Translations under genes and position numbers: made by a program
Shown here: piece by piece, positions 2,201-46,501 of the stretch
Layout of the letters: each line of letters starts with the position of its first letter
Position numbering within the stretch: position 1 is the stretch's first letter
Notes under the pieces: model-generated
Told to the model about the DNA's origin: nothing
What the model saw: the letters and a program-made list of their open reading frames with translations, nothing else
The model's database searches: none
From: Zanthoxylum bungeanum
Taxonomy: Eukaryota; Streptophyta; Magnoliopsida; Sapindales; Rutaceae
Reading direction: 5' to 3'
Length of the DNA: 64,000 nt
Assembly: GCA_019454045.1 (NCBI GenBank)
Contig: SKCR01038123.1
Location: forward strand, 62,001-126,000

Positions 2201-2201
2201 T

Positions 2202-11871: not shown

Positions 11872-11890
11872 TGGTGACTCCACTGGGGAT
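11872..11890 (+). other. Primer binding site of Ogre-1 (tRNA-Arg)
   Basis: TGGTGACTCCACTGGGGAT, three bases after the LTR end. It differs at two positions from the complement of the 3' end of plant tRNA-Arg(ACG), the primer known for Ogre elements. Minus-strand cDNA synthesis would start here. Confidence 0.75.
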
Positions 11891-21164: not shown

Positions 21165-21552
21165 TTAAGTTCGCTTTTGATAAATTCTGCTATTATCTGT
21201 TGGGTCTGAAAGTGATGGTCTACACAGATCATTCAGAAATCAAATACTTAATCATGAAGAAAGATGCAAAACCCAGATTGATCCGTTGGATACTTATACT
21301 GCAAGAATTTGACGTGGAGATCCGAGACAAGAAAGGGACAGAAAACCAAGTGGTAAATCATTTATCGAGGATCGAGAATGGATAAACAGCTGGCAAAGAA
21401 CTGAAAATCAAAGAAACTTTTCCATATGAACAGTTGTTTGACAGGAAACAACACAAAGCTCCTTGGTACACTAACTAGTTCAACTACATAGTATCAGGAA
21501 AATGGTCGTTGGAATGGACAACGCAGCAACAGTAGAAATTCTTCAAGAAAGT
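21165..21552 (+). pseudogene. pol: Athila-O RNase H end (pol fragment 1)
   Basis: Encodes the RNase H part of gypsy pol, starting at 'FAFDKF' and including '[10 protein letters not shown]' and '[15 protein letters not shown]', nearly the same as the Athila-Y protein at 28140-27930. Stops follow at 21382 and beyond. The fragment ends where Athila-Y inserted and continues at 34057. Confidence 0.85.
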
Positions 21553-23653
21553 TGATCAGCGTAATCACACACGTATAATGCAAGCGCACGTATCGTTCAA
21601 GTAGTTTAAAAAGTATCGATCCCACGAGGACTTAATACCTAATTTATTAATTTAACTGAGGCTAAACGATTACTGGTATCTAACAAATTGTTTGATTTGA
21701 TTTGAAATGACGATGATTCTAAATTTAAAAACAAGTAAATAAAATTGCGCAAAAGAATACTGAAGAAAAATTCAAATTTATAAAACTATCCAGGGTTGTG
21801 ATTTATTCCAATATTATTTAAAAGATGAAGTGGTTATCTTATTCTTGGGTAATATATTGATTTATTAACCTGGAACACTAAATTATGTAAACGCCTCTTC
21901 CGATGGTCAATTACAAATACCTAGTATAATCCAATTGAACCATATGTCTATGTCAACCAAATTACCTAGATTCATTAAGATTAAGTTCCAATTATGGCTA
22001 CCCCCGCCCGACAGGTATGTTCCTATCCTGTAAGGAAATCTATTAAAGGGTTATATATCCTCAAGGAAGATCGTGGGCTATTGAGTCTAAGGTCTTAAAC
22101 AAAATCCATTTTCCAAGTTCATTTTCAGTTTACCTAATCAATTTTATTAATGGCCAGTTAATTAAAAATCATTAAAATTAAGACTCAATAAATAAATCTT
22201 TATATTACCCAAACTATAATTTAACCCCTTATAAACCGGTAATATTGGATTTCATCACAACCCCAGATATCTAACTTAGTTACGACACATAACTAGGGCT
22301 AATGAAATAAAAGACATCAAATTAAAATGCTGAAAAGTAATTGCGGTAAAGTAAAAGCTGAAAAGTAAATTACAATAAATTAAATGCTAAGGTAAAAGGA
22401 ATTAACTTCTACTATTTACTATTTAGATATCTCCCATAAATATAACATATAAACTTGTGATAATTTACCAACCAGCCATATAGGCGGTAACCTGATTAAG
22501 TCAAATTAAGTCCAACCAGCCATTAAGGCGGTAACAATAATTGTCCATAATCCAGCCATATAGGCGGAACCAAAATAAACCTGCCATATAGGCGGTAAGA
22601 AGCTTTAATTACCAACCGACCAATCTAGCGTATCCTTATTTAGTCAGGTTTGACCAGATTAAAATGAATTACCAACCAGCCAATATAGCGGTATCCTTGT
22701 TAAGTCAAATTTTAAATAATGAATATATTATAATTATGGGAGATTAATCTAAATATCAATAATAAAAGCTTTACCTTTCACCCCAGCAAAGGAGAATTGC
22801 CTCCGCATTGCTTGAAAAATAAAAACTGCAATAGTAAAGAAAGGAAATGATTGTACGTAAAAGTAAATTGCGGAAAGTAAAAACTAAAAAGTAAAGAAAA
22901 GAAAGTGCGAAAGTAGAAATTAATTACTGAAAGCTATAAATAAATAAAAAAGATACAATCTTTTATTTATTCATTAGGAAATTTCAAAGAAAAAGTATGA
23001 ATTTTACAAATGAAATGACTTGGTATTTATAGGCAAAATTTTGCCTTCCATCAAATCATCCATCAAATTCTACACCAAATCCATTATTAATTTCTCCACT
23101 AATTTCTCAACCAAATCCATAATTGCTCCACTAATTGCTTATCTTGTTTGGTGATGATTTGATAATTTTTATTAATTATTTATTAATTTTATATTTTGCT
23201 TTGAAAATGATTGATAATGACTTTAATAATTACACACCACACACTTCTGGATGGTTCATCAATTCGGTCATGAAATCATCAGAATTCGAAAATATTTTCT
23301 CTTTCACAGTTGTAGATATTCGAGTCTTCTTTAATCTGGCACTTGAATCAGCTCAATCCGATATCGGAGTAAAAAGTTATGCCCGAAATACGACAGATAT
23401 GAAAAACTGGAATTTCCAAAACTGCACTTCGTCAAAACGCCCTTTCAAGTTTCCAATCTCCAAAATTAATATATCAAGTCCAATAATTGCCCTCAATTGA
23501 CCCACATTTCGTCCTAAATGATTTCATTGAGTCCCGATATTATTTTATCTGCAAAATAAAATAAAACATATCAAAACGTTCAATAAACCCGAGAAACTAA
23601 ACAAAATATTAAGTTGAAGGGGCGGTAAATAGTGATATATTTTCCGCTCATCA
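21553..23653 (-). repeat. 3' LTR of Athila-Y (2101 bp)
   Basis: Starts TGATCAGCG and ends CGCTCATCA on the + strand. It has six irregularly spaced units near CCAGCCATATAGGCGG between 22482 and 22690. The ORF at 23135-23500 is not kept in the other LTR and is not a gene. Confidence 0.93.
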
Positions 23654-25002
23654 CACCCCCAAACCTAACAGTTTGCTAGTCCTCAAGCAAAACAAAATAA
23701 AATACATTTAGCATATGCAACAAGCCTTTAAACCCCTAGGTGTCCCTAGTGGACGAGTTGTAGTCTCGTGAGGGTTTACAGCAATGATACCCACAAAAAT
23801 TTTACAAAAGTAAAAAGGTAGTGAAACTAATGCACACAAAAGCAAAAAGACAAGCGAAAAGAGAATAAAGAAATTAGTGACTACTCAGGTGAAACTTCTT
23901 CTACAAGTTACTAGTTGTTTTGTTTCTTTCTAAATTACCGAATAAGTAAATTCTCCTATTATATTTACCATTCTCCATATATACAGCCTAACAAAATATT
24001 AATCAATCTCATTTTTACCCACAACAATCACAAATGTAGTTGACAAGAGAGTAATATTTTTGTCCTAAAGTTTTATCAGAATTCACACCTTTTGTAGTAA
24101 TGGAATAATTTTTCTGATTTTTCTGATTTTTTTTCTCTGATTTTTGAATTTTGAATTTTTATTTATATACAATACCTTCCGACTATGTAGCGAGCTTTGG
24201 GTCGGTGGCTCCCAAACCAATTGGCTTTAGGGCACCAGGTGTTAAGACACCCCTACAGACTTAATTACTCAGACTTCAGATATATATATTTTTGCAACAT
24301 CCTTGATCCATGTAGCAAGCTTTGGGCCAGTGACTCCCAAACCAGTTGGTTTTAGGGCACTAGGTGTTGAAACACCCTTACAGACTTAATAACTCGAATC
24401 TCGGACGTTTTTTTTTTTTTTTTTTTACTCCATCACTTTTTGAGATGCTTCCTCCAATTGAACTAAAGCACTGAATATTACAAACTTTTCAAATACAGCT
24501 CATGTCCGTATGTTACTATGCATATTGATAATACCTGCCAACTGAGCATATGAAGATATATTTTAGTCAGTTTTATGGAGAATTTACAAATTAAATAATT
24601 AAAAGGAAATAAACAAAAAATAACTTATTTCGAAATAGGTTTGAAATACGTCTCAGGAGTGGAAACTCCTTACTCGGCTATCTCATACACCAATTTCAGC
24701 TTCTTAGTCAAAATACAAGCACAAAAACGCAAAATATTTTTGTAATTTTTGAAAATTTTTCATTTTTTTGTATTTTTCGAAAAATTTTGAACTAAAAATA
24801 CAAACATCACACAAACTAAAAAAAAGATACTAATCAACTAATTTCCTCCCCCAAACCTAAATGAGACATTGTCCCCAATGTCTTAAACAGTAGAAGAAGA
24901 GTTTAGAAGATAGTACCTGATTAGCTGAAACTATACAGGAAAATTAAAGGTTAAGATCCAGATTAATCCGACGCTTCTTACCACGATCATTCTCGGACCA
25001 GT
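23654..25002 (-). other. Athila-Y 3' untranslated region with polypurine tract
   Basis: Next to the LTR lies the polypurine tract (minus strand TAGGTTTGGGGGTG, 23654-23667). A unit of about 110 bp is duplicated at roughly 24175-24285 and 24300-24407, each with a GGTGT...ACACC hairpin. A 19-base T run is at 24408-24426. A second purine tract (24841-24858, minus strand AGGTTTGGGGGAGGAAAT) sits next to an 8-bp perfect hairpin AGACATTG-TCCC-CAATGTCT (24864-24883). The same items occur in Athila-O at 48660-49900. Confidence 0.75.
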
Positions 25003-25596
25003 TTATCTTTGAAAGGATAGGGTCAATTGTGGTTCAAAGGCTAATATTTGGTCAATTAGATCCGGGCAGTTCTGGCAGTAAAGAGGAAGTTCCTTCATAG
25101 GTTTTGTTACGAACCCGTTTCTCCGGGCATCATCAAGAATACACACAAAAAAATCATAAAATCCTTCAACATTAAACAGCCCAATCGGTTTCTGGTGTAT
25201 GTTTAAGTTCGCCCAAGATAGCACTATAAAAATTTTCTCCAATGTGCCCAAGCCACCTGGCAAAGCAATAAAAGCATCAGCACGGTTAATCATTTCTACC
25301 AGTCGTTCAGACATACCTGGCACAATAAGTTCTTCTCCGTTTGATGGTCCAATAAGATTCGCCTCCGCCAAGGGTTTTGGAATGATTCCCAAGACTTGAC
25401 TGCCTTCTTCCTGTACAGCCTTTGAAACGATCCCCATAAGTCCAAGATTGCCTCCGCCATATACTAAGTGCATATTCCTTGCAGCTAAGACTCGACCTAA
25501 TTCATGTGCTGCTTCTATGTATTGTGATTTAACACCAACACTAGTTCCGCAAAACACACAGATATTTTCAACCCGTCTTCTTGAAGTGGCTTCCAT
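25003..25596 (-). CDS. LOG: LOG-family protein carried by Athila-Y (intronless)
   Basis: 197 codons, ATG at 25596, no break. LOG enzymes (LOG/lysine-decarboxylase-like Rossmann family) hydrolyse cytokinin riboside 5'-monophosphates to free cytokinin and ribose 5-phosphate in the cytosol or nucleus. Visible motifs: ICVFCGTSVG (12-21), LVYGGGNLGLMG (44-55), the E-R-x-x-E segment with R98, and PGGLGTLEK (113-121). The family signature is PGGxGTxxE; the last residue, implicated in catalysis, is Lys here (codon AAA, 25234-25236), while Athila-O has Glu. So the enzyme may be inactive even though the frame is complete. Length is slightly below the usual 210-230. It lies 256 bp after ORFx, same strand, upstream of the 3' LTR. 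Plant LOG genes normally have introns; none is present, which suggests capture of a spliced RNA. Pyrimidine tracts ending in CAG precede it at about 25639, 25686 and 25757. Confidence 0.9.
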   Translation of the reverse strand: MEATSRRRVENICVFCGTSVGVKSQYIEAAHELGRVLAARNMHLVYGGGNLGLMGIVSKAVQEEGSQVLGIIPKPLAEANLIGPSNGEELIVPGMSERLVEMINRADAFIALPGGLGTLEKIFIVLSWANLNIHQKPIGLFNVEGFYDFFVCILDDARRNGFVTKPMKELPLYCQNCPDLIDQILAFEPQLTLSFQR

Positions 25597-25852
25597 GTTT
25601 TACTCTGGATGTATTTCAAAAGTGCAATGATGAGTTGAATTTATAATACCTGAAAAGGGTGAGTAAAAAAAATAATAGCACTAGTACCTGCCAAATGACA
25701 ATTATTAGTTAAACAGTACAATAAATCGTGATAGTCAAAAAGGTCTGGATCCTGTCGGAGAAAATAAGAGAAAATAACAAAACAAATCAAAATTATTAGG
25801 AAAAGAAAAAGAGATATAATATGTACAAGAAACTTAGCGGCTTGATTGACGT
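25597..25852 (-). promoter_or_regulatory. Candidate 3' splice sites upstream of LOG
   Basis: Between ORFx and LOG the minus strand holds three pyrimidine-rich runs ending in CAG: TTTTCTCCGACAG, GTCATTTGGCAG and CACCCTTTTCAG. All three are recognisable in Athila-O (about 36012, 36077 and 36110), where the first reads AACAG and the second TTTCGCAG. This fits expression of LOG from a spliced LTR transcript; the donor site cannot be fixed from sequence. Confidence 0.45.
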
Positions 25853-26401: not shown

Positions 26402-26539
26402 CTTGTAATGACTAAATCTGCAAAAACTAAACACACAAAATTAAATCACACCAAATCACAATATATACAAAGATTGCATGGGTTGCCTCCCTGCGAGCGT
26501 TAAGTTTTAAGTCGTCAGCTAGTCGTTGCTACTCGAACG
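26402..26539 (-). other. Athila-Y spacer between integrase and ORFx
   Basis: Holds the conserved block GGGAGGCAACCCA (minus strand, about 26477-26489), also found in Athila-O at 35291-35303, and the TTTTTGCAG acceptor-like site directly before ORFx. Confidence 0.55.
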
Positions 26540-29500
26540 TTATGCTGGATCTGAAAGTGTGACACTTTCTTTTTGTCGCTCGAATGATTCTCCCCAGTAG
26601 TGCTTGACACGCTGACTGTTAACTTTGAATGTGTTGTTAGTATTGGGATCCAATAACTCAACAGCTCCATATGGTAGAACCTGAGTGATCACAAATGGAC
26701 CTGACCACCTTGATTTCAACTTTCCAGGGAAAAGTTTCAACCTCGAGTTGTACAACAACACCTGCTACCTTGGTTCTAACTGTCTGTGCACTATTTTTCG
26801 GTCATGCCATTTCTTGGTCTTTTCTTTGTACAATTTGGCATTCTCATAGGCCTGTAGGCGAAATTCCTCCAATTCATTGAGTTGGTGAAGTCTTTTCTCT
26901 CCTGCAACTTGTGGATCAAGATTCAACTTCTTCAGTGCCTAGTACGCCTTGTGTGTTCAAGTTAACTGGCAGGTGGCATGCTTTCCCAAACACCAATCGA
27001 TATGGTGACATACCAATGGGTGTCTTGTAAGCTATCCTGTAGGCCTATAATGCGTCATCGAGTTTTGTAGACCAGTCCCTCCTTGATCCAACGGTTCTCT
27101 CCAAGATTCTTTTGATTTCCCTACTTTGAAACTTCAACCTGTCCATTTGACTGTGGATGGTAAGCAGTGGCAACCTTATGAGTAACTCCATATTTTGATA
27201 GGAGTGCATCAAAATATCTGTTGCAGAAATATGTGCCACCATCACTGATAATTGCACGAGGTGTTCCGAACCGAGTGAAAATGTTCTTTTTTAGAAATTC
27301 GATAACCACTTTTGAATCATTGGATGGTAGTGCAATTGCTTCAACCCATTTGGAGACGTAGTCTACAACAACCAGGATGTACAGATTTCCGAATGATGGT
27401 ATAATGGGTCCCATGAAATCAATACCCCATACATCAAATATCTCGACTTCCAAAATATTTTGCAACGGTCCTTCATTTCTTCTTGAAATATTTCCCGTTC
27501 TCTGGCACCTGTCACATTGAAGAGAAAACAAGTAAGCATCTTTAAAAAGAGTGGGCCAGAACAAACCTGATTGTAAGACTTTTGCTGCAGTTTTGTCCCC
27601 ACTGAAATGTCCGCCATATGGTGATGAATGACAGTGCTGCAAAACACTGTTGACCTCCTTCTGTGGAACGCATCGTCTCAATAATTGATCAGCACAGTGT
27701 TTGAACAGGTACGGCTCATCCCAAACATAGTGCTTGACTTCTTTGAAAAACTTCTTCCGTTGCTGAGTTGTCCATTCCAACGGCCATTTTCCTGACACAA
27801 TGTAGTTGACATAGTCAACATACCAAGGAACTTCCTGCTGTTTCATGGCAAATAGCTGTTCATCTGGAAAAGTTTCTTTGATTGAATGTTCTTTGCCAAC
27901 TGTTTCTCCATTCTCGAGCCTCGATAAATGATCTGTCACTTGGTTTTCTGTCCCTTTCCTGTCTCGAATCTCCACGTCGAATTCTTGCAGAAGAAGTATC
28001 CAACGGATCAGTCTGGGTTTAGCATCTTTCTTCGCGATCAGATATTTGATTGCTGAATGATCTGTGTAGACCACCACTTTGGGACCCAGCAGATAAGAGC
28101 GGAATTTGTCAAAAGCAAACACAACTGCAAGAACCTCATTTTCAGTGGTTGTGTAGTTGAGCTGAGCTTCATTCAGAGTCCTGCTGGAGTAATAAATGGT
28201 GTGGAAAATCTTTGCTTTGTGTTGTCCCAAAACTGCACCTACAGCAAAATCACTAGCAACGCACATCACCTCAAATGGAAGGGTCCAGTCTGGTGCTACT
28301 ATGATAGGAGCAGAGACCAGCTTCTGTTTCAAGATTTCAAAAGGTTCATGGCATTCTTTGTTGAAGTTGAAAGGTACATCCTTCTCCAGAAGATTGTAAA
28401 GAGGTTTTGCAATCTTGGAAAAGTCTTCGATAAATCTCCTGTAAAAACCTGCGTGTCCAAGAAAACTCCGAATCCATTTGACAGTTGTTGGTGGAGGTAG
28501 TTTTTCAATTGTCTGATCTTTGCTTTGTCTACCTCGATTCCCTTTTGTGATATCCAATGTCCAAGAACAATGCCTTCCTGAACCATGAAGTGGCATTTCT
28601 CCCAGTTGAGTACCAGGTTTGTGTCTTCGCACCTTTTTAACACCTGTTCCAGATTATGCAAGCAATGGTCAAAAGAATCTCCAAACACAGAAAAGTCATC
28701 CATGAATAGCTCCATACTCTGCTCCAACATATCTGAGAAGATGGCCATCATGCAACGCTGAAATGTGGCTGGGGCATTATATAATCCAAATGGCATCCTG
28801 CGGAAAGCAAAAGTGCCATACGGACATGTAAATGTGGTTTTCTCCTGATCTTCTAGGGCGATAGCAATCTGATTGTACCCTGAATATCCGTCCAGAAAGC
28901 AATAGTACTCATGTCCTGCCAGTCTATCCAGCATTTGATCAATAAATGGCAATGGAAAATGGTCCTTCCTCGTAGCATTGTTTAACTTTCGGTAATCCAT
29001 GCATACTCTCCATCCAGTCACCGTTCTTGTTGGAATTAGTTCATTCTTTTCATTAGTGACCACAGTAATTCCTCCTTTCTTCAGTACACACTGCATAGGA
29101 CTCACCCAACTGCTATCTGAGATGGGGTAAATGATGCCAACATCCAACCATTTGATTATTTCTTTCTTTACAACTTCTTTCATGATTGGATTGAGTCTCC
29201 GTTGGTGCTCCACTGTGGGTTTGTAGTCGCCATTCATCAGGATCTTGTGCATGCAAAATGATGGACTAATGCCTCGAATGTCAGCTATAGTCCAGCCAAT
29301 GGCTTTATTGTGCTCTCGTAAAACTCTCAATAATTTTTCTTCCTGTTCCAATGTTAGAGAAGAAGAAATAATAACAGGTAATTCAGAAGAGTTTCCAAGA
29401 AATGCATACCTGAGATGGTTCAGAAGTAGCTTCAACTCCAATTGTGGTGGTTCTTCAATCGAAGGCTTGATTCGATCTTTCTTTGGGAGGTCCAGACTTT

Positions 29501-30173
29501 CAACTGGTGTTGTTGATTTGAAATGAAACGGCTTGTTAAGATAGTTGATATATTCCAGAATTTCAGCATCAAGCTCGTTGTCAGTCATGTTGGTGATGCA
29601 AGCTTCAAGTTTGTCCGTAGGAATTGTATCAGTATCCTGGATGATACTATCAACAACATCAATTCTGAAACATTCCTCCTCATTTTCATCGCTCGGGAAT
29701 TTCATGGCTTTGAAAACATTGAAAGTAACTTCTTGGTCCTGAACTTTCATGGTTAGTTCTCCTTTTTGTACATCAATCACAGTTCGTCCTGTCGCCAAGA
29801 ATGGTCTCCTAAGGATAATAGGCACATCTTTGTCTTCTTCCATGTCAAGGATGATGAAATCTGCTGGGAGAATAAGTTTGTCAATTTTGACCAGCACATC
29901 TTCCATGACTCCTATCGGAAATGCAAGCGTTTGATCAGCAAGTTGCAGTGAGACTAAGGTAGGCATTGCTTCTCCAATTTGCAGTTTCCTGTAAATAGAA
30001 AAAGGCATCAAATTAACACTTGCACCTAAGTCACATAAAGCCTTACCGATATAATGTTCTCCAATAGTGCACGGGATTGTGAAACTTCCAGGATCTTTCA
30101 ACTCTGGGGGAAGTTTCCTCTGAATGATAGCACTGCATTCTTCCGATAATGCTATTGTCTCATAATCTCCCAA
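26540..30173 (-). pseudogene. pol: Athila-Y pol: protease, RT, RNase H, integrase; several frame breaks
   Basis: Protease: active site D-L-G-A-S at about 30032-30018. Reverse transcriptase: open from 30173 to 28329, catalytic box F-M-D-D near 28690, preceded by 'GLYNAPATFQRCM'. A frameshift at about 28500 joins to the next open frame (28632-27121) with RNase H ('[10 protein letters not shown]') and integrase: HHCC zinc region ('[16 protein letters not shown]...CDRC'), catalytic D in 'GIDFMGP', D in 'ISDGG' and E in 'GQVEVS'. A second frameshift at about 27120 and stops near 27045 break integrase before the GPY/F-type C-terminal module (26761-26540, 'SRWSGPFVITQVLPYGAVEL'). Non-functional as it stands; naming the frame breaks does not exclude that some are sequencing errors. 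Confidence 0.9.
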
Positions 30174-31829
30174 TCTGCATTTCGTTCGTGAAAGAATCTT
30201 TCATGAATTTGACATAACTGGGCATTTCTTCCAAGGCTTCTGCAAATGGAATGTTGATATGCAGCTTTTTGAACACCTCCAAGAATCGAGCGAACTGTTT
30301 GTCTAGTTTTTTTTTGAAGACACTGAGGAAAAGGTGGAGGTGGAGTGATCTGTTCTTTTTCCTTTGCTTCTTTTTCCTTTGCTTCTTTTTCCTCCATCTG
30401 TTGTGTGACTGCATCTTTTGGAACTTCCTCGATTGTTGTCTTGATTCCAACATCTTTGTTGATTTCAGTATCGCTTTTCAAGGTAATGGCTTGACATTGC
30501 TCCTTCCCTCGATTCCTTGGATTTGGTTCTGTGTTGCTAGGAAGATTTCCTGGGGGTCTGTAACTCTGAGCATTGGCCAGTTTTCCAATTTGATTATCCA
30601 GTGCTTTGATAGAAGCTGATTGGCTTTGAAACATAGCTTCATATTTTTTTAACTGAGCTAGCACTTCTGCCATTACTGGTTCTTTTTCATGCTCCTGGCC
30701 TTTGTTCTGTTGCTGAAATCCAGGTGGTGGATAGTTCTGCTGTTGGAATCCAGGTGGTGGATTATTCCTTTGCCCTGAATTATTGCTCCATGAAAAGTTA
30801 GGATGATTCCTCCACCCTGGGTTGTAGGTGTTGGAATATGGATTGTTCCCTTGTTTGTTGAAATTGTTGACGTAATTCACCGTCTCTTCAGGTTGGGTTG
30901 GCTCTGGTGCTCCTCCAAAAGATGAACTTGTGGCTCCATGGTTACTTTGTGTGTTGAGAGTCTCCATGTATCTGCAAATCTGATCTAGCTTGGCATTTAC
31001 TGCTGAATTGGCTCCAACTTCATAAATTCATGCAATTCTTTGAATCAGGCTCCTTTTTGTTGGCTACAAGAAATTGTTGTTGGCCATTTCTTCAATTAGG
31101 TCACAGGCTTGATCTTCTCCTTTTGCCATCAAAGCTCCTCCAGCAGCAGCATCAATTGTGGTTCTCATTATTCCAGAAAGTCCATTATAGAAGGTTTGGA
31201 CTTGAAGCCATTTTGGAATCTCATGGTGAGGACATTTTCGGAGCAAATCTTTATACCTTTCCCAAGCTTCGTAAAGAGTTTCTGAATCTTGTTGCACAAA
31301 GGATGTGATGTCATTCCTCAGCTTTCCAGTTCTGGCTGGTGGAAAGTACTTTGCAAGGAATTTGGTGGCTAGATTGTTCCATATTGTGATGGAACCTGCT
31401 GGTAGTGAATGTAACCAAGCTTTAGCTCTGTCCTTCAAGAAGTATGGAAAAATACGAAGTCTCATAGCTTCTTCAGCTTCTCGGTTGTAATTGAAAGTGC
31501 CGCAAACATCCAGGAAGTTGCTGATGTGGGTATTAGGATCTTCAGTTGCATTCCCCCCAAACTGAACTGACTGCTGTATCATCTGAATGCAAGTTTTGAT
31601 GTCAACCCGCATTGGCTGGTAAGGGAGGAAGTACAATTCATGAAATGAGTCTGTCAACCACCGGAATGGTTCTGTCTCGAATAGGAATTGGTGGTGCAAC
31701 CTCCAAAGGTTCAGGTTCCATGTTAACAATTGCTTCTTGGCCTTCTCGCATTTCCCTTCTCAACTGTCTGATGGTTCTTTCAATCTCTGGGTCAAGCGGT
31801 CGGAGTTCAAAGCTTCTGGTTCGTCTCAT
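30174..31829 (-). pseudogene. gag: Athila-Y gag, broken
   Basis: Starts at the ATG at 31829 (MRRTRSFELRPLD). The minus strand just upstream has a strong acceptor-like tract (TTCTTGTGTTTCAG), so the gag ATG may also be reached by splicing. A frame change near 31640 leads to the Retrotrans_gag core (31600-31070: 'DPNTHISNFLDVCGTF', 'AWLHSLPAGSITIWNNL'). Stops follow at 31064 and about 31030. The next part is rich in Pro, Gln and Asn with a repeated PPPGFQQQN. A frame change at about 30310 lies at a T run, and another near 30175 leads into the protease frame. Confidence 0.85.
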
Positions 31830-31932
31830 GAAAGATCTGAGAACCTGAAACACAAGAAAACAAAAAACAATAAAAAAAAAATATACTAGTAAAGGCATCT
31901 AACCTCAAAACTACTAATAAAAGATAAATAAG

Positions 31933-31950
31933 TCCCCGGCAACGGCGCCA
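31933..31950 (-). other. Primer binding site of Athila-Y (tRNA-Asp)
   Basis: On the minus strand TGGCGCCGTTGCCGGGGA, a full match to the complement of the 3' end of plant tRNA-Asp(GTC), the primer typical of Athila. It begins six bases after the 5' LTR. Confidence 0.93.
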
Positions 31951-31956
31951 AAAACT

Positions 31957-34051
31957 TGATCGGCGTAATCACACACGTATAACGCAAGTGCACGTATCGT
32001 TCAAGTAGTATATAAAAGTATCGATCCCACGAAGACTTAATACCTAATTTATTAATTTAACTGAGGCTAAACGATTACTGGTATCTAACAGATTGTTTGA
32101 TTTGATTTGAAATGACGATGATTCTAAATTTAAAAACAAGTAAATAAAATTGCGCAAAAGAATACTGAAGAAAAATTCAAATTATAAAACTATCCAGGGT
32201 TGTGATTTATTCCAATATTATTTAAAAGATGAAGTGGTTATCTTATTCTGGGTAATATATTGATTAATTAACCTGGAACACTAAATTATGTAAACGGCTC
32301 TTCCGATGGTCAATTACAAATACCTAGTATATCCAATTGAACCATATGTATATGTCAACCAAATTACCTAGATTCATTAAGATTAAGTTCCAATTATGGC
32401 TACCCCCGCCCGACAGGTATATTCCTTTCCTGTAAGGAAATCTATTAAAGGGTTATCTATCCTCAAGGAAGATCGTGGGCTATTGAGTCTAAGGTCTTAA
32501 ACAAAATCCCTTTTCCAAGTTCATTTTCAGTTTACCTAATCAATTTTATTAATGGCCAGTTAATTAAAAGCATTAAAATTAAGACTCAATAAATAAATCT
32601 TTATATTACCCAAACTATAATTTAACCCCTTATAAACCGGTAATATTGGATTTCATCACAACCCCAGATATCTAACTTAGTTACGACACATAACTAGGGC
32701 TAATGAAATAAAAGACATATAAATTAAAATGCTGAAAAGTAATTGCGGTAAAGTAAAAGCTGAAAAGTAATTACAATAAATTAAATACTAAGGTAAAAGG
32801 AATTAACTTCTACTATTTACTATTTAGATATCTCCCATAAATATAACATATAAACTTGTGATAATTTACCAACAGCACCATATAGGCGGTAACCTGATAA
32901 TCAAATAAGTCCAACCAGCCAGTTAAGGCGGTAACAATAATTGTCCATAATCCAGCCATATAGGCGGAACCAAAATAAACCGGCCAATAGGCGGTAAGAA
33001 GCTTTAATTACCAACCGACCAATCTAGCGGTATCTTTATTTAGTCAGGTTTAACCAGATTAAAATGAATTACCAACCAGCCAATATAGCGGTATCCTTGT
33101 TAAGTCAAATTTTAAATAGTGAATATATTAAAATTATGGGAGATTAATCTAAATAGCAATAATAAAAGCTTTACCTTTCACCCCAACAAAGGATAATTAC
33201 CTCCTCATTGCTTGAAAAATAAAAACTGCAAAAGTAAAGAAAGGAAATGATTGTACGTAAAAGTAAATTGCGGAAAGTAAAAACTAAAAAGTAAGAAAAG
33301 AAAAAGTGCGAAAGTAGAAATTAATTACTGAAAGCTATAAATAAATAACAAGATACAATCTTTTATTTATTCATAGGAAATTTCAAAGAAGAAAGTATGA
33401 ATTTTACAAATGAAATGGCTTGGTATTTATAGGCAAAATTTTACCTTCCATCAAATCATCCATCAAATTCTACACCAAATCCATTATTAATTTCTCCACT
33501 AATTTCTCCACCAAATCCATAATTGCTCCACTAATTTCTTATCTTGTTTGGTGATGATTGATAATTTTTATTAATATTATTAATTATATTTATTTTTGCT
33601 TTGAAAATGATTGATAATGACTTTAATAATTACACACCACACACTTCTGGATGGTTCATCAATTCGGTCATGAAATCATCAGAATTCGAAAATATTTTCT
33701 CTTTCAAAGTTTTAGATCTTTGAGTCTCCTTTAATCTGGCACTTGAATCAGCTCAATCCGATATCGGAGTAAAAAGTTATGCCCGAAATACGACAGATAT
33801 GCAAAACTGGAATTTCCAAAACTGCACTTCGTCAAAACGCCCTTTCAAGTTTCCAATCTCCAAAATTAATATATTCAAGTCCAATAATTGCCCTCAATTG
33901 ACCCACATTCGTCCTAAATGATTTCATTGAGTCCCGATATTATTTTATCTGTAAAATAAAATAAAACATATCAAACATTCAATAAACCCGAGAAAACTAA
34001 AAAAATATTAAGTTAAAGGGACGGTAAATATTGATATTTTTCCGCTCATCA
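31957..34051 (-). repeat. 5' LTR of Athila-Y (2095 bp)
   Basis: Ends TGATCGGCG (31957) and CGCTCATCA (34051). It is close to the 3' LTR at 21553-23653, with scattered single-base changes and short indels. It carries the same GGCGG-containing repeat cluster (about 32870-33105). Confidence 0.93.
33422..33432 (-). promoter_or_regulatory. Candidate TATA box of the Athila-Y 5' LTR
   Basis: CTATAAATACC on the minus strand, kept in the 3' LTR (23022-23032). It would direct transcription toward gag, starting around 33395-33400, about 1.5 kb before the primer site. Assigned from motif and position. Confidence 0.6.
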
Positions 34052-34056
34052 AAAGT

Positions 34057-35365: not shown

Positions 35366-35914
35366 ATGGAAGACATTCTTGCAAATCTTCACAAGCAATT
35401 TCATTCTCTCTCTCAAAACTCTTTGATGAAAGTTTACAAAGATCACTTGGAACGAATGAGACTTCTAATGATCAAAGGTATTCCTAATGACATTCGTTGG
35501 ATTATTGAAGCACGGGTCTGATTGGCAGGTGACTCTTCTGATTCTTTTATTTCATATCTGCCTGGTTTAGGAAAAAACACCTATGCTAAAAATAGAAGAG
35601 CTAAAAAGATGGGTGTTTGCTATAAATATGCTAGTATGACATGTAATACTCATTATCGTTCTTTAGGAATGATGTCTAATAACATTGAAGATAAAATTAA
35701 ATTCATTAGGGATGGCTTGAGTAAGAAGTATTTGGATGAAATATCTAAGACTCTTGAGATGCATTCCAGTGGATATGTACATCATGCAATTCACAAGTTA
35801 TATGCACAATTACGAAAAGAAATGAAACAATACAGTCTTGAGAATCTAACTCTAAAAGACCCCGTTTTCTAATTTATAAGAAAGTTGGACTGGAAGCTTG
35901 TCATTGACGCATAG
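35366..35914 (+). pseudogene. Athila-O copy of ORFx
   Basis: Same length and frame as the Athila-Y ORFx, starting MEDILANLHKQF. Stops at 35519 (TGA where Athila-Y has an Arg codon) and near 35870. The basic cluster is kept as AKNRRAKK; the C-x2-C is C-x-x-Y. The protein also keeps 'KIKFIRDGLSK' and 'SGYVHHAIHKL'. No indels relative to Athila-Y, which makes the pair suitable for a codon-based selection test. Confidence 0.8.
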
Positions 35915-36650
35915 ACGTCATTCAAGCCATTACTTATTGTAAATATTATTATCTCCTTGTATTTTGCTAATAATTATAATTTTTGTTTTTTTTCTTTTAT
36001 TTTCTCCAACAGGATCCATACTTTTTGACTTTTCATGATCTACTTTTCTTTTTAGCTAATAATTGTCATTTCGCAGGTACTAGTACTATTATTACTCACC
36101 ATTTTTCAGGTGTTATAAATTCAACTCATCATTGCACTCTTGAAGGCATCCAGATTTGAGAAAGAAATACAATAAAAATGGAAGCTACTTCAAAAAGACG
36201 AGTTATAAACATCTGTGTATTTTGCGGTACTAGTGTTGGTTCTAAGCCATAATATGTTGGAGCAGCACAAGAATTGGCTAGAGTCATAGCCGAGAGGAAT
36301 ATGCACTTAGTATATAGCGGTGGCAATCTTGGACTAATGGGGATCGTTTCAAGGGTTGTATAGAAAGGAGGCAGTCAAGTTTTGGGAATCATCCCAAAAC
36401 CCTTGGCAAAGGCAAATCTTATAGGACCATCAAATGGAGAGAAACTGGTCGTGCCAGATATGTCTGAATGACTGGTAGAAATTATTAACCGTGTTGATGC
36501 TTTTATTACTTTGCCAAATGGCTTGGGCATGATGGAGGAATTTTTTATAGTGCTATCTTGGGTGAACTTGAACATACACCAGAAATCGATGGGACTATTT
36601 AATGCTGATGGATTTTATGATTTTCTTTATGTGTTACTGGATGATGCCCG

Positions 36651-38571
36651 TGTTGGTTTCTATTGATGTCCCAAAAATATTAAGCCATGAAATAGAATGA
36701 ATACACAAGGAAGAGTGGCGGAAACACACTTACAAAGATCGGTTGGATGAGATGCTTAAAAAAAAAATTTCTTTCCCTTTGGTGAAGATTCGGCCAAGCC
36801 TTTGTTTTGTTGATGAGAATTAAGCAAGCTTCAGGCTTTCAAGGAAATCCAAGCTCTAAGATCAGCTTCCCTATCACCTTGTTTGATTCTTGATGTGCTA
36901 GCAAAAGATGAAAGAAAATCAAGTCTTCCTTCACCACTTGGAGTTCACGGTTTTAGCAAGAGAGAGGAAGAGAGTTTTTTTTTTGTGTTTTTGTTTCTTT
37001 GTTTTCTAAAAAAATTACCATAAAAGTGTTACCAAATATTTGGTATATGGATTTCAAAAAGTCAACACACTTTTGGCTCCAAAAAACCAATAAATGCTCT
37101 CACAAGCTTGTGTCATGAATAGTGACTATATTTCACTCACCAAAACGGTGACTTGACATCTATCACTAAAGTGACAAGTGATGTGACTCGTGATGTGACT
37201 TGTGGGCCCCACTTGATTCAAAATGCGAGTGGGCCCGTAAACACTTCCGGGCTCGGTTTCACTAATTCCAAATTGACGAACTTTCGTCGCGACGTAATTA
37301 AGTAATTATGCCTAGCGAAATTACTATTCACATCGCTAACGAATTAATTCTAAATTAACTCGTTTGCCCAAATTAAAATCTAATTTTAATTTCGCGTCGA
37401 AATGTAATTTCGTTTAATATATTGAATATATTATTTTGTCGATTAATTCCAAATTAATCTTTCTATCTCTTCAAATAGTACTTTATCCAAGATAAAGTCT
37501 TTCCGCAATTAATCCCAGATTAATTAAGTTCGAATCATACGTCATCGGTGAATCTTCGGGAAGCGACCCAAGAGATCCCTTGATATGTTGGCAGTAAATA
37601 CAGTCGTCGGACTATCTGAACACGTACGTACCTCGTACTATATTTTTACTTATTTACGAGACAAGGTTGGCTTCTAGCAAAGCACCATGCCTACCCAATT
37701 CTCTAGGAATATTCTTACTGAAATATAAGATATATATCAGGCGTAGTAAACCGTAGTATTGTGTATTGCGATCCAGTTTTGGATGTCACGTGCAAAGCCT
37801 AGGGCTGGAATAGTGTCTGCCTCGTACGAAGCACATATCGGATATCAAGCAACTAGTCTCTTTGAATCGGATATACATGATCTGGTCATATTATCCCGAT
37901 AGTTGCAACACAATAGAGAACCAGTTCTGAATCCCTGCGTGATCATCATCTCCATATGTCTGAAGTGATACTTCCGTCTTGACATCACATCCAATACACT
38001 ACGATTCTCAATAAACCCAGCAGAGGCGTACACAGAACCTGTTAAAGTCCTGGACGACCAAAACCAATGCGTATCAATTGTCGCAAGTACTAGCGATGCA
38101 AGTCTCAAGTTAAGACCAAATACACCGACCCTGAAGCGGACTCTCATAGACACATATACATACTACCAATGGGATTCCACAAGGTCTATCCACAGCGAAG
38201 TTGTTTTCCGTACCATCGGTAAAACACAACCTCCTATCACACTTGCATAAGTATCCAATACTTAAATATATGAGAACTATGCCGTTATGCCCTCACAACA
38301 CGCACAAGTGCAATACTAGTCTATTCCGCATTATTTATATCCGATCTCGATAATACTACGACTAGGGATATTTAATTATTAAACCTTTATTGATTGATAC
38401 TGTCTCATATCATCTCAATCCGAAACTAATCATAAGGACTTCTACCATTTATATATTAAAGTAAATAAATACAAAATGGTAAAAGGCAATTTCATTATTA
38501 CATAGTTAATTTTGTACAAAAACACAATGTCTTTTACAAACAGTGACGCTATGGGTCATAACTGTCCAATA
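36651..38571 (-). repeat. 3' LTR of copia-B (1921 bp)
   Basis: Plus-strand ends TGTTGG and CCAATA (the CA terminus of the partner LTR is TA here). Very similar to 46502-48420. In its U5 part the plus strand has AGAGTGGCG (36712-36720), identical to nt 4-12 of plant initiator tRNA-Met. Confidence 0.93.
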
Positions 38572-39520
38572 ATCTCCCACTTGGCCTATAGCGAGTCACT
38601 CAAGCATCTAATACCTGAACTATGTACATGTCACTCAAACTTTTGCTGAGGAATAGATTTCGTCAGCGGATCTGCCATGTTGTCATCTGATGCGACCTTC
38701 TCGATCTTCACATCGCCATGATGTATGATCTCACGAATCAGATGGAAATATCGAAGAATATGCTTGGATCATTGATGAGACCGCGGTTCCTTAGCCTGCG
38801 CTATAGCCCCATTATTGTCACAATACAATGGAACGGGCTCAACTATTACGGAACTACTCCTAATCCAATTAGGAATTTTCTGATCCAAATTGCTTCCTTT
38901 GTTGCTTCAGCTGCAGCAATGTACTCCACTTCTGTTGTTGAATCGGCAACAGTCTCTTTCTTGGAAGATTTCCAGCTCACTGCTCCGTTGTTCAAACAAA
39001 ATATATACCCGGATTGCAACTTACAGTCGTCTTTTTCGGTTTGGAAACTTGCATCGGTATACCCAGTTACCTCAAGTTCTCCATAGATTAAAAAAGCATC
39101 ATTAGTTCATCTAAGATACTTAAGGATGTTCTTAACCGCCATCCAGTGACCTTCACCCGCATCGGCCTGATAGTGACTACACATGCTCAATGCATAGGAG
39201 ACATTAGGTCGCGTACATATCATGGCATACATGATCGATCCGACTGCAGAGGCGAATTGTATCCGACTCATGTTGTCTCTCTCATCTTGAGTTTTAGGAC
39301 ACATGTCATTAGATAGATAGACGCCATGTGACACTCGCAACAATCTTCTCTTGGACTGATCTATGTTGAATCTCTTCAACACTTTGTCAATATATGTACT
39401 CTATGAGAGTCCAAGCAGCTTTCTAGATCTATCCCAATAGATATTTATTCCCAGAATAAAGGCTGCTTCTCCCAGATCTTTCATGGAGAATTTAAATGAA
39501 AGCCAAGCTTTCACCGACGT
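38572..39520 (-). pseudogene. pol: copia-B RNase H domain
   Basis: Conserved 'FASAVGSIMYAMICTRPNVSYAL' type block within 39382-39107, followed after a frame change by 'GYTDASF' and the tail up to the polypurine tract. Related to copia-A 4581-5290. Frame changes show it is not translated as one unit. Confidence 0.78.
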
Positions 39521-40213
39521 TAGCATGGGAATGTCATTGCCTATAAGCAATATCGTCAACATAAAGGACAATAAAAGTCAGTGCTCTCCCACTAACCTTC
39601 TTATATACACAAGGATCATCATCGTTTTGAATGAAATCATATTCTTTTATGATCTCATCAAAATGTTGGTTCCATGACCTCGATGCTTGTTTCAATCCAT
39701 AAATGGATCGATTTAACTTACAAACCTTGTTTGCAAGTCTAGGCACGATAAAACCGTCAGGCTGTTGCATATAAACATCCTCCAAAAGGTTTTCGTTAAT
39801 GAAAGCGATTTTAACGTCCATCTGCCATATCTCGTAATCAAAATATGCAGCAATAGCAAGTATTATCCGAATGGATTTAATCATGGCAACATGTGAGAAA
39901 GTTTCATCGTAATCGACATTATGTCGTTGATGATACCCCTTCGCTACAAGCCTAGCTTTGTACGTTTGTACGTTGCCATCCATGTCGGTCTTCTTCTTGA
40001 AGATCCATTTGCAACCAATAGGCTTTATGCCTTCTGGTGCGTCAACCAGTGTCCAAACTTGGTTAGTGTATATGGAATCCATTTCAGACTTCATGGCTTC
40101 TTGCCATAAAGCGGAATCGATATCTTGTATTGCTTTCTCATACGTAGCCGGTTCATTATCCTCAATGAGATTAATATCTACATGAGGTGAGATCAGAACC
40201 CATACCTCTTAGG
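39521..40213 (-). pseudogene. pol: copia-B reverse transcriptase
   Basis: An open frame from 40094 to 39534 covers most of RT: 'GCKWIFKKKTDMDG', 'AMIKSIRIILAIAAYFDYEIWQMDV', 'SIYGLKQASRSWN' and the catalytic Y-V-D-D at about 39563-39552. The frame is lost right after it (I-A-Y-R-Q-stop). Upstream part (40185-40095) shares the 'EMDSIYTNQVW' start with copia-A. Confidence 0.85.
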
Positions 40214-41530
40214 TTATTTCCTGACTCTCTCCGACCTACGCGGTCCTTGTGTAATAGAAGATTGTGGTACATTCTCATCCCGGATGGACTGTTTTTCTTC
40301 CGTTGAGGATTCTATGCCAGGAACAGTATCACTCCGATTTTCATCGAGTTCTACTTTCCTCCCACTAACCACTACATTTAGGAATTCCTTCTCAAGGAAA
40401 ATCGTATATAGAGCAACAAATATTTTGTTCTCTCGTGGGTGATAGAAGTAATATCCTTTGGTTTCCCTATGATATCCTACGAATAGGCATTTATCCGATT
40501 TGGGCTCAAGTTTGGTACCTTCTAAATGTTTGACGTATGCCCAGCATCCCCAAATCTTCAGGAATGAGAAACCCGATTTCTTTCCTGTCCATATCTCATA
40601 CGGAGTCTGTTGTACAGACTTTGACCGAACCTTATTCAAAATAAGAATTGCACTGTTTAATGCATATCCCTAGAAGGAAATAGTAGCTCAGTGCGACTCA
40701 TCATAGACCTAACCATGTCCAACAAAGTTCGGTTTCTCCATTCGGACACACCGTTTAATTGCGATGTTCCAGGAGGAGTCCACTGTGAAAGAATACCATA
40801 TTCTTTCAAGTAATCTAGAAACTCATTGCTCAAGTATTCACCACCACGGTCCGACCGTAATGTCTTTATACTCATGCCGGTCTGTTTTTCAACTTCATGT
40901 CGAAACTCTTTGAATTTGTCAAAAGTTTCTGACTTGTGTCTCATAAGATACACATAACCATAACGCGATGCATCATCCGTAAAGGTTACGAAGCATTCAT
41001 ATCCACCCATAGCTTGGCTAGACATGGGCCCACATACGTCACTATGAACGAGGGATAATAGTTCGGTGGCGCGTTCACCTTTACCGCTAAAAGGTGATTT
41101 AGGCATTTTTCCTAATAAGCAAGATTCGCAGACGTCATATGAATTTGGATCAAATCCGTCCAAGTACCCACTCTTCGAAAGTGTGGATATGAGAGTCTTG
41201 TTTATGTGTCCTAGACGACAATGCCACATATAAGTTTCATCTTTATTACTCATTTTAAGCCTTTTGTTTGTTATATTATATGTTTGAGATTGACTTATAT
41301 TCAAAATATAAAGACAATTATTTGCTACAGCAGTGCAAATATCTATATCATTTTTATAAATAAAATACCCAGTATTTCTAAATACAAAAGTGTACCCACA
41401 TTGGGTTAACATAGATACAGAAATAATATTCGTAGTCAAACTAGGTACATAATAACAGTCATTAAGTTCAAGTACATGCCCCGATGGCAGTTCTAAAATA
41501 AAAGTGCCAAAGGGCCAAAACGGTGACTGG
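40214..41530 (-). pseudogene. pol: copia-B integrase, largely intact
   Basis: Open from about 41500 to 40657 with complete signatures: zinc H-x-x-x-x-H and C-x2-C ('WHCRLGHIN', 'CESCLLGK'), catalytic Asp in 'HSDVCGP', Asp in 'LRSDRGGEY' and the Glu region in 'LNGVSE'. A frame change near 40650 leads to the C-terminal part (40639-40214, 'KCLFVGYHRETKGYYFY'), which ends in a stop at 40214. A frame change near 41522 separates it from protease. Better preserved than copia-A. Confidence 0.87.
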
Positions 41531-41739
41531 TGCCCCATTTCCGACGCGTAGATCAATCTCCCATGAGGCCAGTCTCCTGCTAATCCACAGATCTTTCACA
41601 TCAGTACATATGTGAGTACCACAACCAGAATCAAAAATCCAATTTTTAAAACTAGAAGTAGTCAAGTTTATTTCAATAACAAACATACATGTAGCCGGTG
41701 CCTTGCCCATTTTAATCTCCTTCTGGAGCACCTTGTACT
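41523..41739 (-). pseudogene. pol: copia-B aspartic protease domain
   Basis: Open frame with 'NWIFDSGCGTHICTD' (D-S-G active site at about 41647-41639). The frame is lost at about 41522 before integrase. Confidence 0.8.
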
Positions 41740-42505
41740 CGCGGCAGACATGATTCCAGTGACCCCGCTTGCCGCACTAGAGGCATACATCCTGAGATTT
41801 GTCCTTAGACTTCCCAGAAGCCTTTGACGATTTGGCCTTGCCCTTTCTCTTATGCTTCTTCTTCTTCATACCTCCAGTCGCCTTGGGCCCAGCCCTCGGT
41901 CTCTGAGATGTCGAAGCAAAGTGCGCCTCGTGCTTATTGCCCTTAAGTAGCTCATTCTCAGCTTCCTTGAGAATTGACAACAAGTCTCCAAGAGTGTCAT
42001 ATGTGTTCATCAATTTATAGTTTATGGTGAATTGTCTCCAAGTGTTAGGAAGAGACTGCAAGATCAAATCTATAGTAGTCTCAGCCTCGAGGACTATCCC
42101 CATCTGAGAAAGCTCATCTATGTCAGCAATCATCTGTGCTACATGGGACTCAACAGACATGCCTTCTAACATACGTGAACGGAAGAGCTTCTTTTGTAAC
42201 TCATATCTCTGCGACCTTCAGTTAGATCGGTGAAGATCGTGCAACCTCGCCAACATATTATAGGGATCCAAGTCCCTGTTCTGTCGATGGAAATACTGAA
42301 TCATAGAAGCAAGCATAATTGACTGAGCAGTATCATTGTCATCGCTGTGAGTCTTCCAAAGCTCCAGCTCAACTAACTGATCAAGGTTGGGTTTAGGCCC
42401 AAGAGGTGTATGTATAGTATACAGAAGCCTTTCGGCTCCAAGGACTATCCTCAGATTCATTTCCCAATCGGCAAAGTTTGTGCCCTTAAAGACATTTTCG
42501 CCCAT
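41740..42505 (-). pseudogene. gag: copia-B gag, two stops
   Basis: Likely start ATG at 42505 (MGENVFKGTNF). One frame runs through the capsid-like region; it has a TGA at 42216-42218, then is open from 42172. A lysine-rich segment precedes a CX2CX4HX4C knuckle near 41785-41745, in which one codon is TAG (from CAG). Otherwise close to copia-A gag and readable in one frame. Confidence 0.85.
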
Positions 42506-45500: not shown

Positions 45501-46482
45501 CGCGAGTCCAACTCGTTTGAGAATAATTACTCAAAGTACGAATTCTTGAATTATATCGAACTACTCGTTAAATCTAATTTTAATTCGTATTCAATACTAA
45601 TTCAATTTAATTACAAATTAAATAATACACTTTTAATGCGTTTTAAAGACTTAGATTCCAAATCTAATCCTAATGGGTCTCAAAGCCCATTTAACATTCA
45701 ATGTAGTTTAATTAAAGTCAAATGGGTTTTCAATTGATTTCATAAGGCATGGGCTTTGGTCAATGTGGGTCAAACCCAATTACCAAGCCCAATTAAGGAA
45801 TCACCCTCATTTGCCATAAAACCAATTTTAACCCATAAGACCCAATTAAACTTTTAAAGCCCATTTATTACATTGGGCTTGATGGAATGATTTAGGCCCA
45901 ATTTGGATCCAATCCAATTGGCCTAAACCAACTTGGCCCAACCAAGCCCATTATGTCCAAATATAACATTTTCAAGCCCAATTTAAAATTAAGCCCATTA
46001 ATCAAATTTTAAAATTCCAAATTTTATAATTCAATTAAGTTAAGTGTATTACATCAATTAATTAACTAAATCAATATTTCCAAAATATAATTTAACTAAT
46101 TAATTACGTATCCTATTGTTCAACTAATGTCCAACATTCTTGAACCAAAAAATCAAGTCTTTACATGCCATCAAGCTCTCGGCCAAGGTAGGGATTTTTG
46201 TTCGAATTCGTTTTTCAATCCGATTGAATTTTAAATCGACATTCCCAATCGTTTCAAGTCATCCAATGATCATCAAAACAAAAATACCATGACTTCCAAG
46301 GGTAAATCATATTCGGCCATGCCTTAATTTTTGGGGAAAATTGATCCAATCAACGTTTCACGAAATTGATCATGTATAACACCATGTTATCAACATACAA
46401 GCATACTTAATCAAACAATTTCATCAAATCATGCTCCAATCAATTTTATCCAAATTTTACCCTAAAATATTTCATGCTTAAA
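42506..46482 (-). other. Leader of copia-B, split by a solo LTR
   Basis: About 2.15 kb of leader after removing the insertion at 42992-44822. It has the same four GCCAAAG motifs as copia-A: 42799-42814, 42975-42988 (interrupted by the solo LTR), 44901-44916 and 44992-45007 (plus-strand coordinates of CTTGACTTTGGCCAAC forms). Near the 5' LTR the sequence is rich in GGGCTT/AAGCCC words (about 45690-46010). No ORF is conserved. Confidence 0.75.
42992..44817 (-). repeat. Solo Athila-type LTR in the copia-B leader
   Basis: Ends TGGCCGGCG and ACTCATCA, flanked by CATAA (42987-42991 and 44818-44822). Aligns with the Athila-Y LTRs (GTATAACGCAAGCGCAC near the start, the GGCGG repeat cluster at about 43903-44070), so it is a different subfamily of the same lineage. 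Near its right end are a 75 bp direct repeat (about 44384-44460) and a 125 bp direct repeat (about 44464-44710). Single LTR with no internal sequence: the product of LTR-LTR recombination. Confidence 0.92.
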
Positions 46483-46500
46483 CAAGGCTTCATGATACCA
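46483..46500 (-). other. Primer binding site of copia-B (tRNA-Met type)
   Basis: Minus strand TGGTATCATGAAGCC, one base after the LTR. The first eight bases match the complement of the 3' end of initiator tRNA-Met (TGGTATCAGAGC); the rest is weaker. Confidence 0.65.
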
Positions 46501-46501
46501 T

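Follow-up and report, generated by a model that had tools for sequence, protein, structure and literature searches.

The window analyzed here, a 64,000-nucleotide stretch of the Zanthoxylum bungeanum genome (assembly GCA_019454045.1, contig SKCR01038123.1, positions 62,001 to 126,000 of the forward strand), contains an Athila-type Ty3/gypsy long terminal repeat (LTR) retrotransposon, element Y, that carries a LOG-type open reading frame (ORF) in sense orientation between its integrase and its 3' LTR. A previous reading made from the letters alone (the sequence-only reading) had placed the gene there, and this was borne out by the LTR pair, target site duplication (TSD), primer binding site (PBS) and ORF order, the first three being recognized in the window together with a purine tract (Table 1).

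A LOG-type gene inside an Athila-type element

Along the minus strand the ORFs of Y follow the order gag, ORF271, reverse transcriptase (RT), RNase H-integrase, a second accessory ORF designated NAB, and LOG. The LTRs end in TG...CA and are 96.2% identical over the aligned pair (Kimura two-parameter distance, K2P, 0.034), which gives an insertion age of about 1.3 to 2.4 million years with rates of 1.3e-8 and 7e-9. Y is nested in an older related element, O, which lies on the opposite (plus) strand. As the sequence-only reading had stated, O has the same gene in the same place, where it is decayed and is interrupted at 36650 by a Copia-type element.

The product of the window LOG matched Pfam family PF03641 (E 3.6e-32) and TIGR00730 (E 3.1e-47), with AtLOG3 (2a33, E 3.8e-51) as the closest solved structure, and scored 108.7 against the NCBIfam equivalog NF058542, under its cut-off of 300. 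The gene had been described as intact, and its frame is real and open, but relative to copy L004 it has suffered three 1-base indels (an extra base near 25088 and bases missing near 25066 and 25029), by which a short stretch is frame-scrambled and the final ~20 residues are gone. Furthermore, the final Glu of the PGGxGTxxE motif, a catalytic position, is Lys. In the Corynebacterium glutamicum enzyme, Arg99 and Glu122 are proposed to be catalytic, and Ala mutants of the adenosine monophosphate-binding or catalytic residues, S19A excepted, had almost no activity left (PMC4979012), so the window protein is probably inactive. The motif is changed in 3 of the 32 copies shown besides the window copy (L012, L028 and O), and L028, 1 of 20 long copies, has the same Glu-to-Lys change. 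The Pseudomonas aeruginosa LOG chains of PDB entries 5zbj and 5zbk differ from each other at this same Glu (LEELFE and LEALFE).

The Athila-type label rests on the LTRs, the TSD, the purine tract, the RT-RNase H-integrase order, the PBS and domain absences. The PBS sequence TGGCGCCGTTGCCGGGGAC is of the tRNA-Asp type. No match to a chromodomain or a second RNase H was found in the pol ORFs of Y (Pfam, E 0.001), and the Athila ORF-1 domain PF03078 was matched neither by the six ORFs of Y nor by ORF271 of one further copy, which sets Y apart from the Athila elements that have it; the domain is present in 16% of Athila elements and hence not obligatory (PMC6317226). With Athila, Calypso and Diaspora, Y shares the ~2.1 kb LTR pair, the 5-bp TSD, the RT-RNase H-integrase order and the lack of a detected chromodomain, and in Calypso and Diaspora the tRNA-Asp PBS also lies a few bp inside the LTR, as in Y (PMC1142308). 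On the other hand, the position at which Athila has an env-like ORF (PMC1142308) is taken in Y by NAB and LOG.

Table 1. Coordinates of the retroelement features recognized in the 64,000-nucleotide window.
Feature	Positions	Strand	Evidence or remark
5' LTR of Y	31957..34051	-	inner end from sequence reading; BLAST gave 31952
3' LTR of Y	21553..23653	-	LTR pair alignment
TSD AAAGT, left	21548..21552	.	sequence reading
TSD AAAGT, right	34052..34056	.	sequence reading
PBS TGGCGCCGTTGCCGGGGAC, tRNA-Asp type	31932..31950	-	6 bp inside 5' LTR
Purine tract GGTTTGGGGGTG adjoining 3' LTR	23654..23665	-	sequence reading
gag ORF	31064..31729	-	Retrotrans_gag E 2.4e-23
ORF271 (271 codons), between gag and RT	30152..30967	-	no Pfam family at E 0.001
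RT ORF	28329..30173	-	RVT_1 at residues 385-541
RNase H and integrase ORF	27121..28632	-	RT_RNaseH, Integrase_H2C2, rve
NAB ORF of Y, 182 codons	25853..26401	-	PF05515 E 8.8e-7, PF01623 E 1.7e-5, both scored on the GTG-started ORF 25853-26434
Last ~90 nt before LOG start	25597..25690	-	TTTTCAG/G acceptor-like and TATTATAAAT TATA-like motifs
LOG-type ORF of Y, 197 codons, PGGLGTLEK	25003..25596	-	Pfam, NCBIfam and PDB matches
NAB ORF of O, decayed, two stops	35366..35914	+	coordinates derived from repeat arms
5' part of LOG of O	36178..36650	+	three stops; homology resumes at ~48426 beyond the insert
Copia-type LTR element within LOG of O	36651..48420	.	TSD GCCCG

Copies of the gene and selection on it

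The assembly searched amounts to 3.96 Gb in 51,709 contigs. Copies were counted with 30-mer patterns, at most 2 mismatches being allowed for LOG and a reversed LOG pattern serving as control. The LOG pattern was found at 10,572 + 10,603 = 21,175 places, the NAB pattern at 16,447 and the RNase H pattern at 10,018 (controls 0 in each case); the ratio of these counts is only a hint, since the patterns are unequally conserved. The proposal that such elements explain dispersed intronless LOG-like sequences thus holds for this genome, and relatives elsewhere, seen as proteins, also lie at many loci. When the genome was searched with a canonical LOG, the best 150 matches were full-length copies with 51-54% identity, like element copies, and none was an exon-sized match. 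Scans of Viral_contigs yielded no plant element, one LOG match at 35% identity (L061) and no NAB.

Two protein searches, each of which scored the best 150 of 66,288 and 56,656 initial candidates and is enriched for intact copies, gave 125/150 and 145/150 copies free of an inner stop (hand count). Among the loci read forward, open LOG frames with PGGLGTLEE comprised four of 217 codons and three of 197. As a less biased set, copies were picked by their 3'-untranslated region (UTR) DNA (40 matches, of which 20 were fetched at 1.7 kb). LOG was adjacent in 19/20 of these UTR-chosen copies, and NAB lay inside the fetched 1.7 kb in 11/20; the full 217-codon LOG was open in 2/20, the other 17 LOG copies being cut, stopped or frame-shifted.

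A NAB match lay upstream of LOG in 19/20 of the first 20 loci (flanks up to 1.5 kb), and among 20 long copies (9.6 kb, all picked by LOG, table counts made by hand) LTR-like sequence followed LOG downstream in 19/20, a NAB match was present in 18/20 and RNase H-integrase in 7/20. Linkage was also examined on the 100 exact places listed for each pattern, using contigs up to C566 (100 LOG, 27/100 NAB and 65/100 RNase H places). LOG lay in sense 827-856 bp downstream of NAB at 13 of the 27 NAB places and 2563-2595 bp downstream of RNase H at 12 of the 65 RNase H places, and a reversed order or orientation was found at 0 of these listed places; at the remaining 14 NAB and 53 RNase H places LOG may be present with mismatches, or absent. 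The LTR-like sequence downstream and the fixed NAB-LOG and RNase H-LOG spacings agree with the sequence-only reading that the gene was captured before the copies split and was carried through transposition. That reading would have been overturned had LOG been absent from all other Athila copies or shown exon-intron remnants and flanks of a normal LOG locus; LOG was present in other copies, and neither outcome occurred.

Half of the long copies (10/20) have NAB and LOG as well as gag and an N-terminal segment of the RT ORF, with no match to the RT core, RNase H or integrase, a further departure from Athila. Eight of the ten share one breakpoint, the match ending at residue 192 of the RT ORF, and the ten copies (L021, L024-L026, L032, L036-L040) look like a multiplied derivative. 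One long copy has merely a NAB fragment, and in L030 and L033 LOG stands near LTR matches with no NAB or gag match, so that they are possible LOG-only mini-elements. Carriers of LOG that lack pol therefore exist and are frequent among LOG carriers.

Selection was measured as the pairwise Nei-Gojobori ratio of nonsynonymous to synonymous divergence (dN/dS) in sets of 7 to 20 sequences. Because LOG-chosen copies are biased to an intact LOG, dN/dS was redone on copies picked by non-coding DNA, and because transitions at 4-fold sites were elevated, as in methylated DNA, transversions at 0-fold versus 4-fold sites were used too. In the UTR-chosen set dN/dS was 0.20 (0.15-0.32) for LOG (19 copies) and 0.26 (0.22-0.35) for NAB (11 copies), with LOG ratios of 0.66, 0.30, 0.32, 0.31 and 0.20 in successive dS bins from close to distant pairs. 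The corresponding values in LOG-chosen copies were 0.16 for LOG, 0.21 for RT, 0.27 for gag, 0.38 for NAB, and 0.44 for both integrase and ORF271. Transversion ratios were 0.41 (0.28-0.76) for LOG and 0.53 (0.42-0.71) for NAB in the UTR-chosen set, and in the LOG-chosen set 0.23 (0.19-0.28) for LOG, 0.36 (0.25-0.48) for RT, 0.66 (0.33-1.04) for gag, 0.83 (0.64-1.02) for integrase and 0.89 (0.71-1.14) for ORF271. The constraint on LOG is thus about that on RT, the fair LOG value (UTR-chosen) and the RT value (LOG-chosen) coming from different sets. The catalytic Glu was retained in 18/19 UTR-chosen and 19/20 LOG-chosen long copies, and the catalytic Arg in 20/20 of the latter. We consider it very likely that LOG is maintained by selection.

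The LOG protein, its NAB neighbor and other repeats of the window

Database searches gave 7,911 and 7,739 matches among 8,000 scored candidates each. The best 120 of each formed a union of 175 proteins, from which 152 of 195-260 residues were analyzed and 23 were excluded by length. Arg99 is kept in 140/152 of these relatives, Glu122 in 149/152 and Trp129 in 151/152. Lys100 and Glu125, which are placed in the adenine/prenyl site (PMC4979012), are both replaced in 140/152, both retained in 11/152 and mixed in 1/152; this canonical set is present in AtLOG3, AtLOG8 and the P. aeruginosa and Bacillus subtilis proteins. The PGGxGTxxE motif with the catalytic Arg and Glu is therefore a feature of the family and the canonical K100/E125 pocket is not, and the label "cytokinin-activating", which the gene had been given, is not a safe inference in view of the two pocket residues replaced.

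The relatives also share a distinctive C-terminus. An L.L.L pattern at most 3 residues from the end occurs in 124/152, compared with 3% when the last 20 residues were shuffled, and 144/152 carry a pair or run of basic residues within this 20-residue end. The altered pocket accompanies the tail in 122 of the 124 L.L.L-tailed relatives, and H97 is mostly Ser in the LxLxL-tailed ones (49/76). Among Zanthoxylum copies with readable tails (frames joined), LxLxL was found in 25/26 LOG-chosen and 15/16 UTR-chosen copies. The tail resembles an EAR motif, for which TOPLESS would be a putative partner. Canonical LOG proteins are not known to have such a tail; the AtLOG3 and AtLOG8 sequences compared stop 8 to 12 residues short of the C-terminus. 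The model of one relative (P0003, with alignment A1; predicted confidence, pLDDT, 84) had AtLOG3 2a33 as its best Foldseek match (E 3.2e-19, TMt 0.92), and as judged from this model the type-I, Rossmann-type LOG fold is kept in the family. Compared with AtLOG3, AtLOG8 and bacterial type-I LOG, the element family therefore has the same fold, PGGxGTxxE motif and catalytic Arg and Glu, and differs by the K100/E125 replacement, the basic and LxLxL tail, the intronless gene and its location in a retroelement.

Named relatives among the matches listed come from Populus, Xanthoceras, Reevesia, Diplodiscus, Parasponia and Paulownia. Close relatives are spread over many loci in Reevesia, whose locus names carry eight chromosome labels, and likewise in Diplodiscus, Populus and Xanthoceras. 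A FastTree tree of 103 tips was built from one of the best-120 lists and four outgroups (two Arabidopsis, two bacterial). AtLOG3 and AtLOG8 fall outside, followed by eight proteins with the canonical pocket (five of them from Xanthoceras) and tails like KKRRLA or KRRRLD, then by P0053, which combines the canonical pocket with an LxLxL tail, and finally by the altered-pocket remainder (P0101 being mixed), with support of 0.72-0.91 at these nodes. This order suggests that LOG was probably captured a single time and changed stepwise afterwards.

NAB, on which the sequence-only reading was silent, lies between integrase and LOG, upstream of the latter. It exceeds the cut-offs of Viral_NABP PF05515 and Carla_C4 PF01623 in the window and in 4/4 further copies, but its likeness to the cysteine-rich nucleic-acid-binding proteins of carlaviruses is confined to ~30-85 central residues. 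Its conserved core reads KKRRAK...C-x2-C...C...C, its predicted structure has low confidence (pLDDT 65), and PHROGs gave weak matches (best E 0.0078). The database holds 386 NAB relatives, and the 120 listed include proteins of Xanthoceras, Populus, Acer, Rhamnella and three Orobanche species. Twice, a LOG and a NAB relative have longest contigs of equal length (8,723 and 4,511 bases), which hints at linkage of the two genes elsewhere too. The likeness between virus and element may reflect either transfer or convergence; carlaviruses belong to the Betaflexiviridae. A case comparable to LOG is the AlkB-type demethylase ORF of Phalaenopsis Gypsy elements, in which an enzyme resembling a host protein has likewise become a fixed additional ORF, although enzyme and lineage are different and the AlkB protein was assayed, whereas LOG is known here from sequence; AlkB domains occur in Betaflexiviridae too (PMC9289625). 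With this orchid ORF, NAB would make two types of accessory gene common to elements and Betaflexiviridae.

The NAB-LOG spacer as a whole was rejected as a conserved region, being no more conserved than the 3' UTR; its last ~90 nt alone are less diverged than the remainder (78/136 pairs comparable). Acceptor-like and TATA-like motifs, by our own reading, are conserved at 25640-25690, just before the LOG start. Because these motifs precede LOG, its RNA is possibly spliced or made from its own promoter.

The window holds further repeats. The Copia-type elements at 36651-48420 and 1-6551 lie on opposite strands and are related, with 85% likeness over 5.5 kb; within the former, at ~42998-44819, is a block resembling an LTR of the Athila family. 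Long blocks in direct orientation at 15583-20815 and 53563-59234 are ~71-80% alike, with related pieces at 9900-14009 and 61631-64000; together they probably represent another old LTR family, with a gag match at 13585-14097.

Origin and possible role of the element-borne LOG

From the computed evidence above, which covers where LOG lies, how many copies exist, how constrained it is, which residues have changed and how well the tail is conserved, we infer as the likely overall explanation that an ancient lineage of Athila-type Ty3/gypsy elements in flowering plants gained an intronless host LOG, probably once, and retains it behind integrase and next to NAB as an accessory gene with the role of a nuclear effector. 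Selection on the element's own multiplication would maintain LOG, which would hence be no passive passenger. With its type-I fold, the Arg/Glu pair of the family, an altered nucleotide pocket and a C-terminal tail that combines basic residues with EAR-like LxLxL, the protein would most likely be a nuclear, element-encoded effector that may hydrolyse a nucleoside monophosphate, recruit TOPLESS-type co-repressors, or both, rendering the host cell more permissive to the benefit of the element. The parts of this explanation differ in strength. That the enzyme is still active in open copies is somewhat favored because the catalytic pair is retained, with confidence lowered because both open UTR-chosen copies have an altered motif. 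A plain cytokinin nucleotide is unlikely to be the substrate still, because the pocket has changed. The tail favors a nuclear role, and its function as an EAR motif is possible, if short of an even chance. In a bolder version, which we regard as rather improbable, a LOG-fold hydrolase with a new substrate and a TOPLESS-recruiting EAR tail would act beside a virus-related NAB to reprogram or desilence the host, and LOG would be selected even in copies without RT and integrase.

Several observations weigh against this explanation. Most LOG copies are dead; among the UTR-chosen copies both open LOGs have one substitution within PGGxGTxxE, so that 0/20 are open with the motif unchanged, and the catalytic Arg is retained in only 12/17 readable ones. 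Constraint is weak in close LOG pairs (0.66 at dS below 0.1), as expected of dead copies, so the selection signal depends on older branches, and NAB appears weakly constrained in the LOG-chosen set (transversion ratio 0.72, 0.43-1.05). The pol-less copies are no proof that LOG outlasts pol, because they were picked for LOG. LxLxL is a short motif, and one subfamily, to which the window copy belongs, multiplied despite a frameshift that cost it the tail, which is therefore no absolute requirement. The relatives of other plants were seen as proteins and may or may not be linked to elements, and the single capture rests on a thin outgroup of two Arabidopsis and two bacterial LOGs.

The same data were weighed for four other explanations. 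True cytokinin activation, with isopentenyladenine riboside 5'-monophosphate (iPRMP) or trans-zeatin riboside 5'-monophosphate (tZRMP) converted to free cytokinin that drives division or meristem fate so that insertions reach the germ line, would account for the LOG fold and for the PGGxGTxxE motif, R99 and E122 that most relatives retain, and 11/152 have a fully canonical pocket; as K100 and E125 are replaced in 140/152, including the relatives nearest to the window protein in the tree, we hold it to be fairly unlikely. The retained E122 (149/152) and R99 (140/152) would be unneeded by a pure scaffold, which speaks against a non-enzymatic nucleotide-binding platform with the tail as its active part, even though the tail is conserved, the pocket is changed, the Glu-to-Lys change recurs in L028 besides the window copy, and Arg is lost in 5/17 UTR-chosen copies; such a platform is improbable.

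Passive hitch-hiking, in which LOG, caught a single time by a prolific family, would seem constrained just because the few master copies that transpose have yet to lose it, would fit the many dead copies, the spread of the frameshifted short form, and a family that tolerates decay, as the weakly constrained ORF271 and integrase of LOG-chosen copies indicate. It does not sit well with a LOG constraint about equal to that of RT, nor with a tail and catalytic pair kept at ~50% identity in homologues of several other plants, and we judge it distinctly unlikely. That Athila inserted by chance beside ordinary LOG genes or processed pseudogenes scattered through the genome has a practically negligible probability: the sequences are intronless and dispersed, but they lie in sense at fixed distances from NAB and RNase H, LTR-like sequence follows in 19/20 long copies, and in the window the TSD lies outside the LTRs. 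Chance insertion beside a host LOG gene was rejected on this constant spacing and orientation.

A LOG gene inside plant Gypsy elements is already known, and the Zanthoxylum family adds detail to that kind. A YgdH/LOG domain is given for Gypsy consensus sequences of Citrus sinensis and C. clementina and, unfiltered, also of Populus trichocarpa, in one sentence of a 2022 domain screen that cites Steinbauerova 2011 (PMC9289625). These elements share with Y a LOG-family domain inside a plant Gypsy LTR element, and the section in question is silent on their anatomy, copy number, selection, pocket and tail, as well as on a NAB neighbor, lineage or position. The Populus LOGL10-type proteins group in the wider clade of the window protein in our tree. 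In the literature searched, which lacks most subscription papers, copy number, selection, pocket, tail, the NAB partner and pol-less carriers were not met; neither "decarboxylase" nor "YgdH" occurs in the body of PMC6317226 or of PMC7264820, no paper linking lysine decarboxylase to Athila or cytokinin riboside to Ty3 was found, PMC9289625 alone connected YgdH to retrotransposons, and nothing relevant on an EAR motif in LONELY GUY or on carlavirus genes in LTR retrotransposons stood among the matches listed.

Annotated LOG or LOGL10 genes in plant genomes may be element genes, a warning for annotation. Host genes in retroelements are usually fragments present in few copies. Here a gene with an enzyme fold has spread to ~21,000 places of one genome under about the constraint of RT, and the same altered pocket and tail occur in relatives from several other flowering plants, which puts in concrete form the question of what advantage a retrotransposon draws from an enzyme of a hormone pathway.
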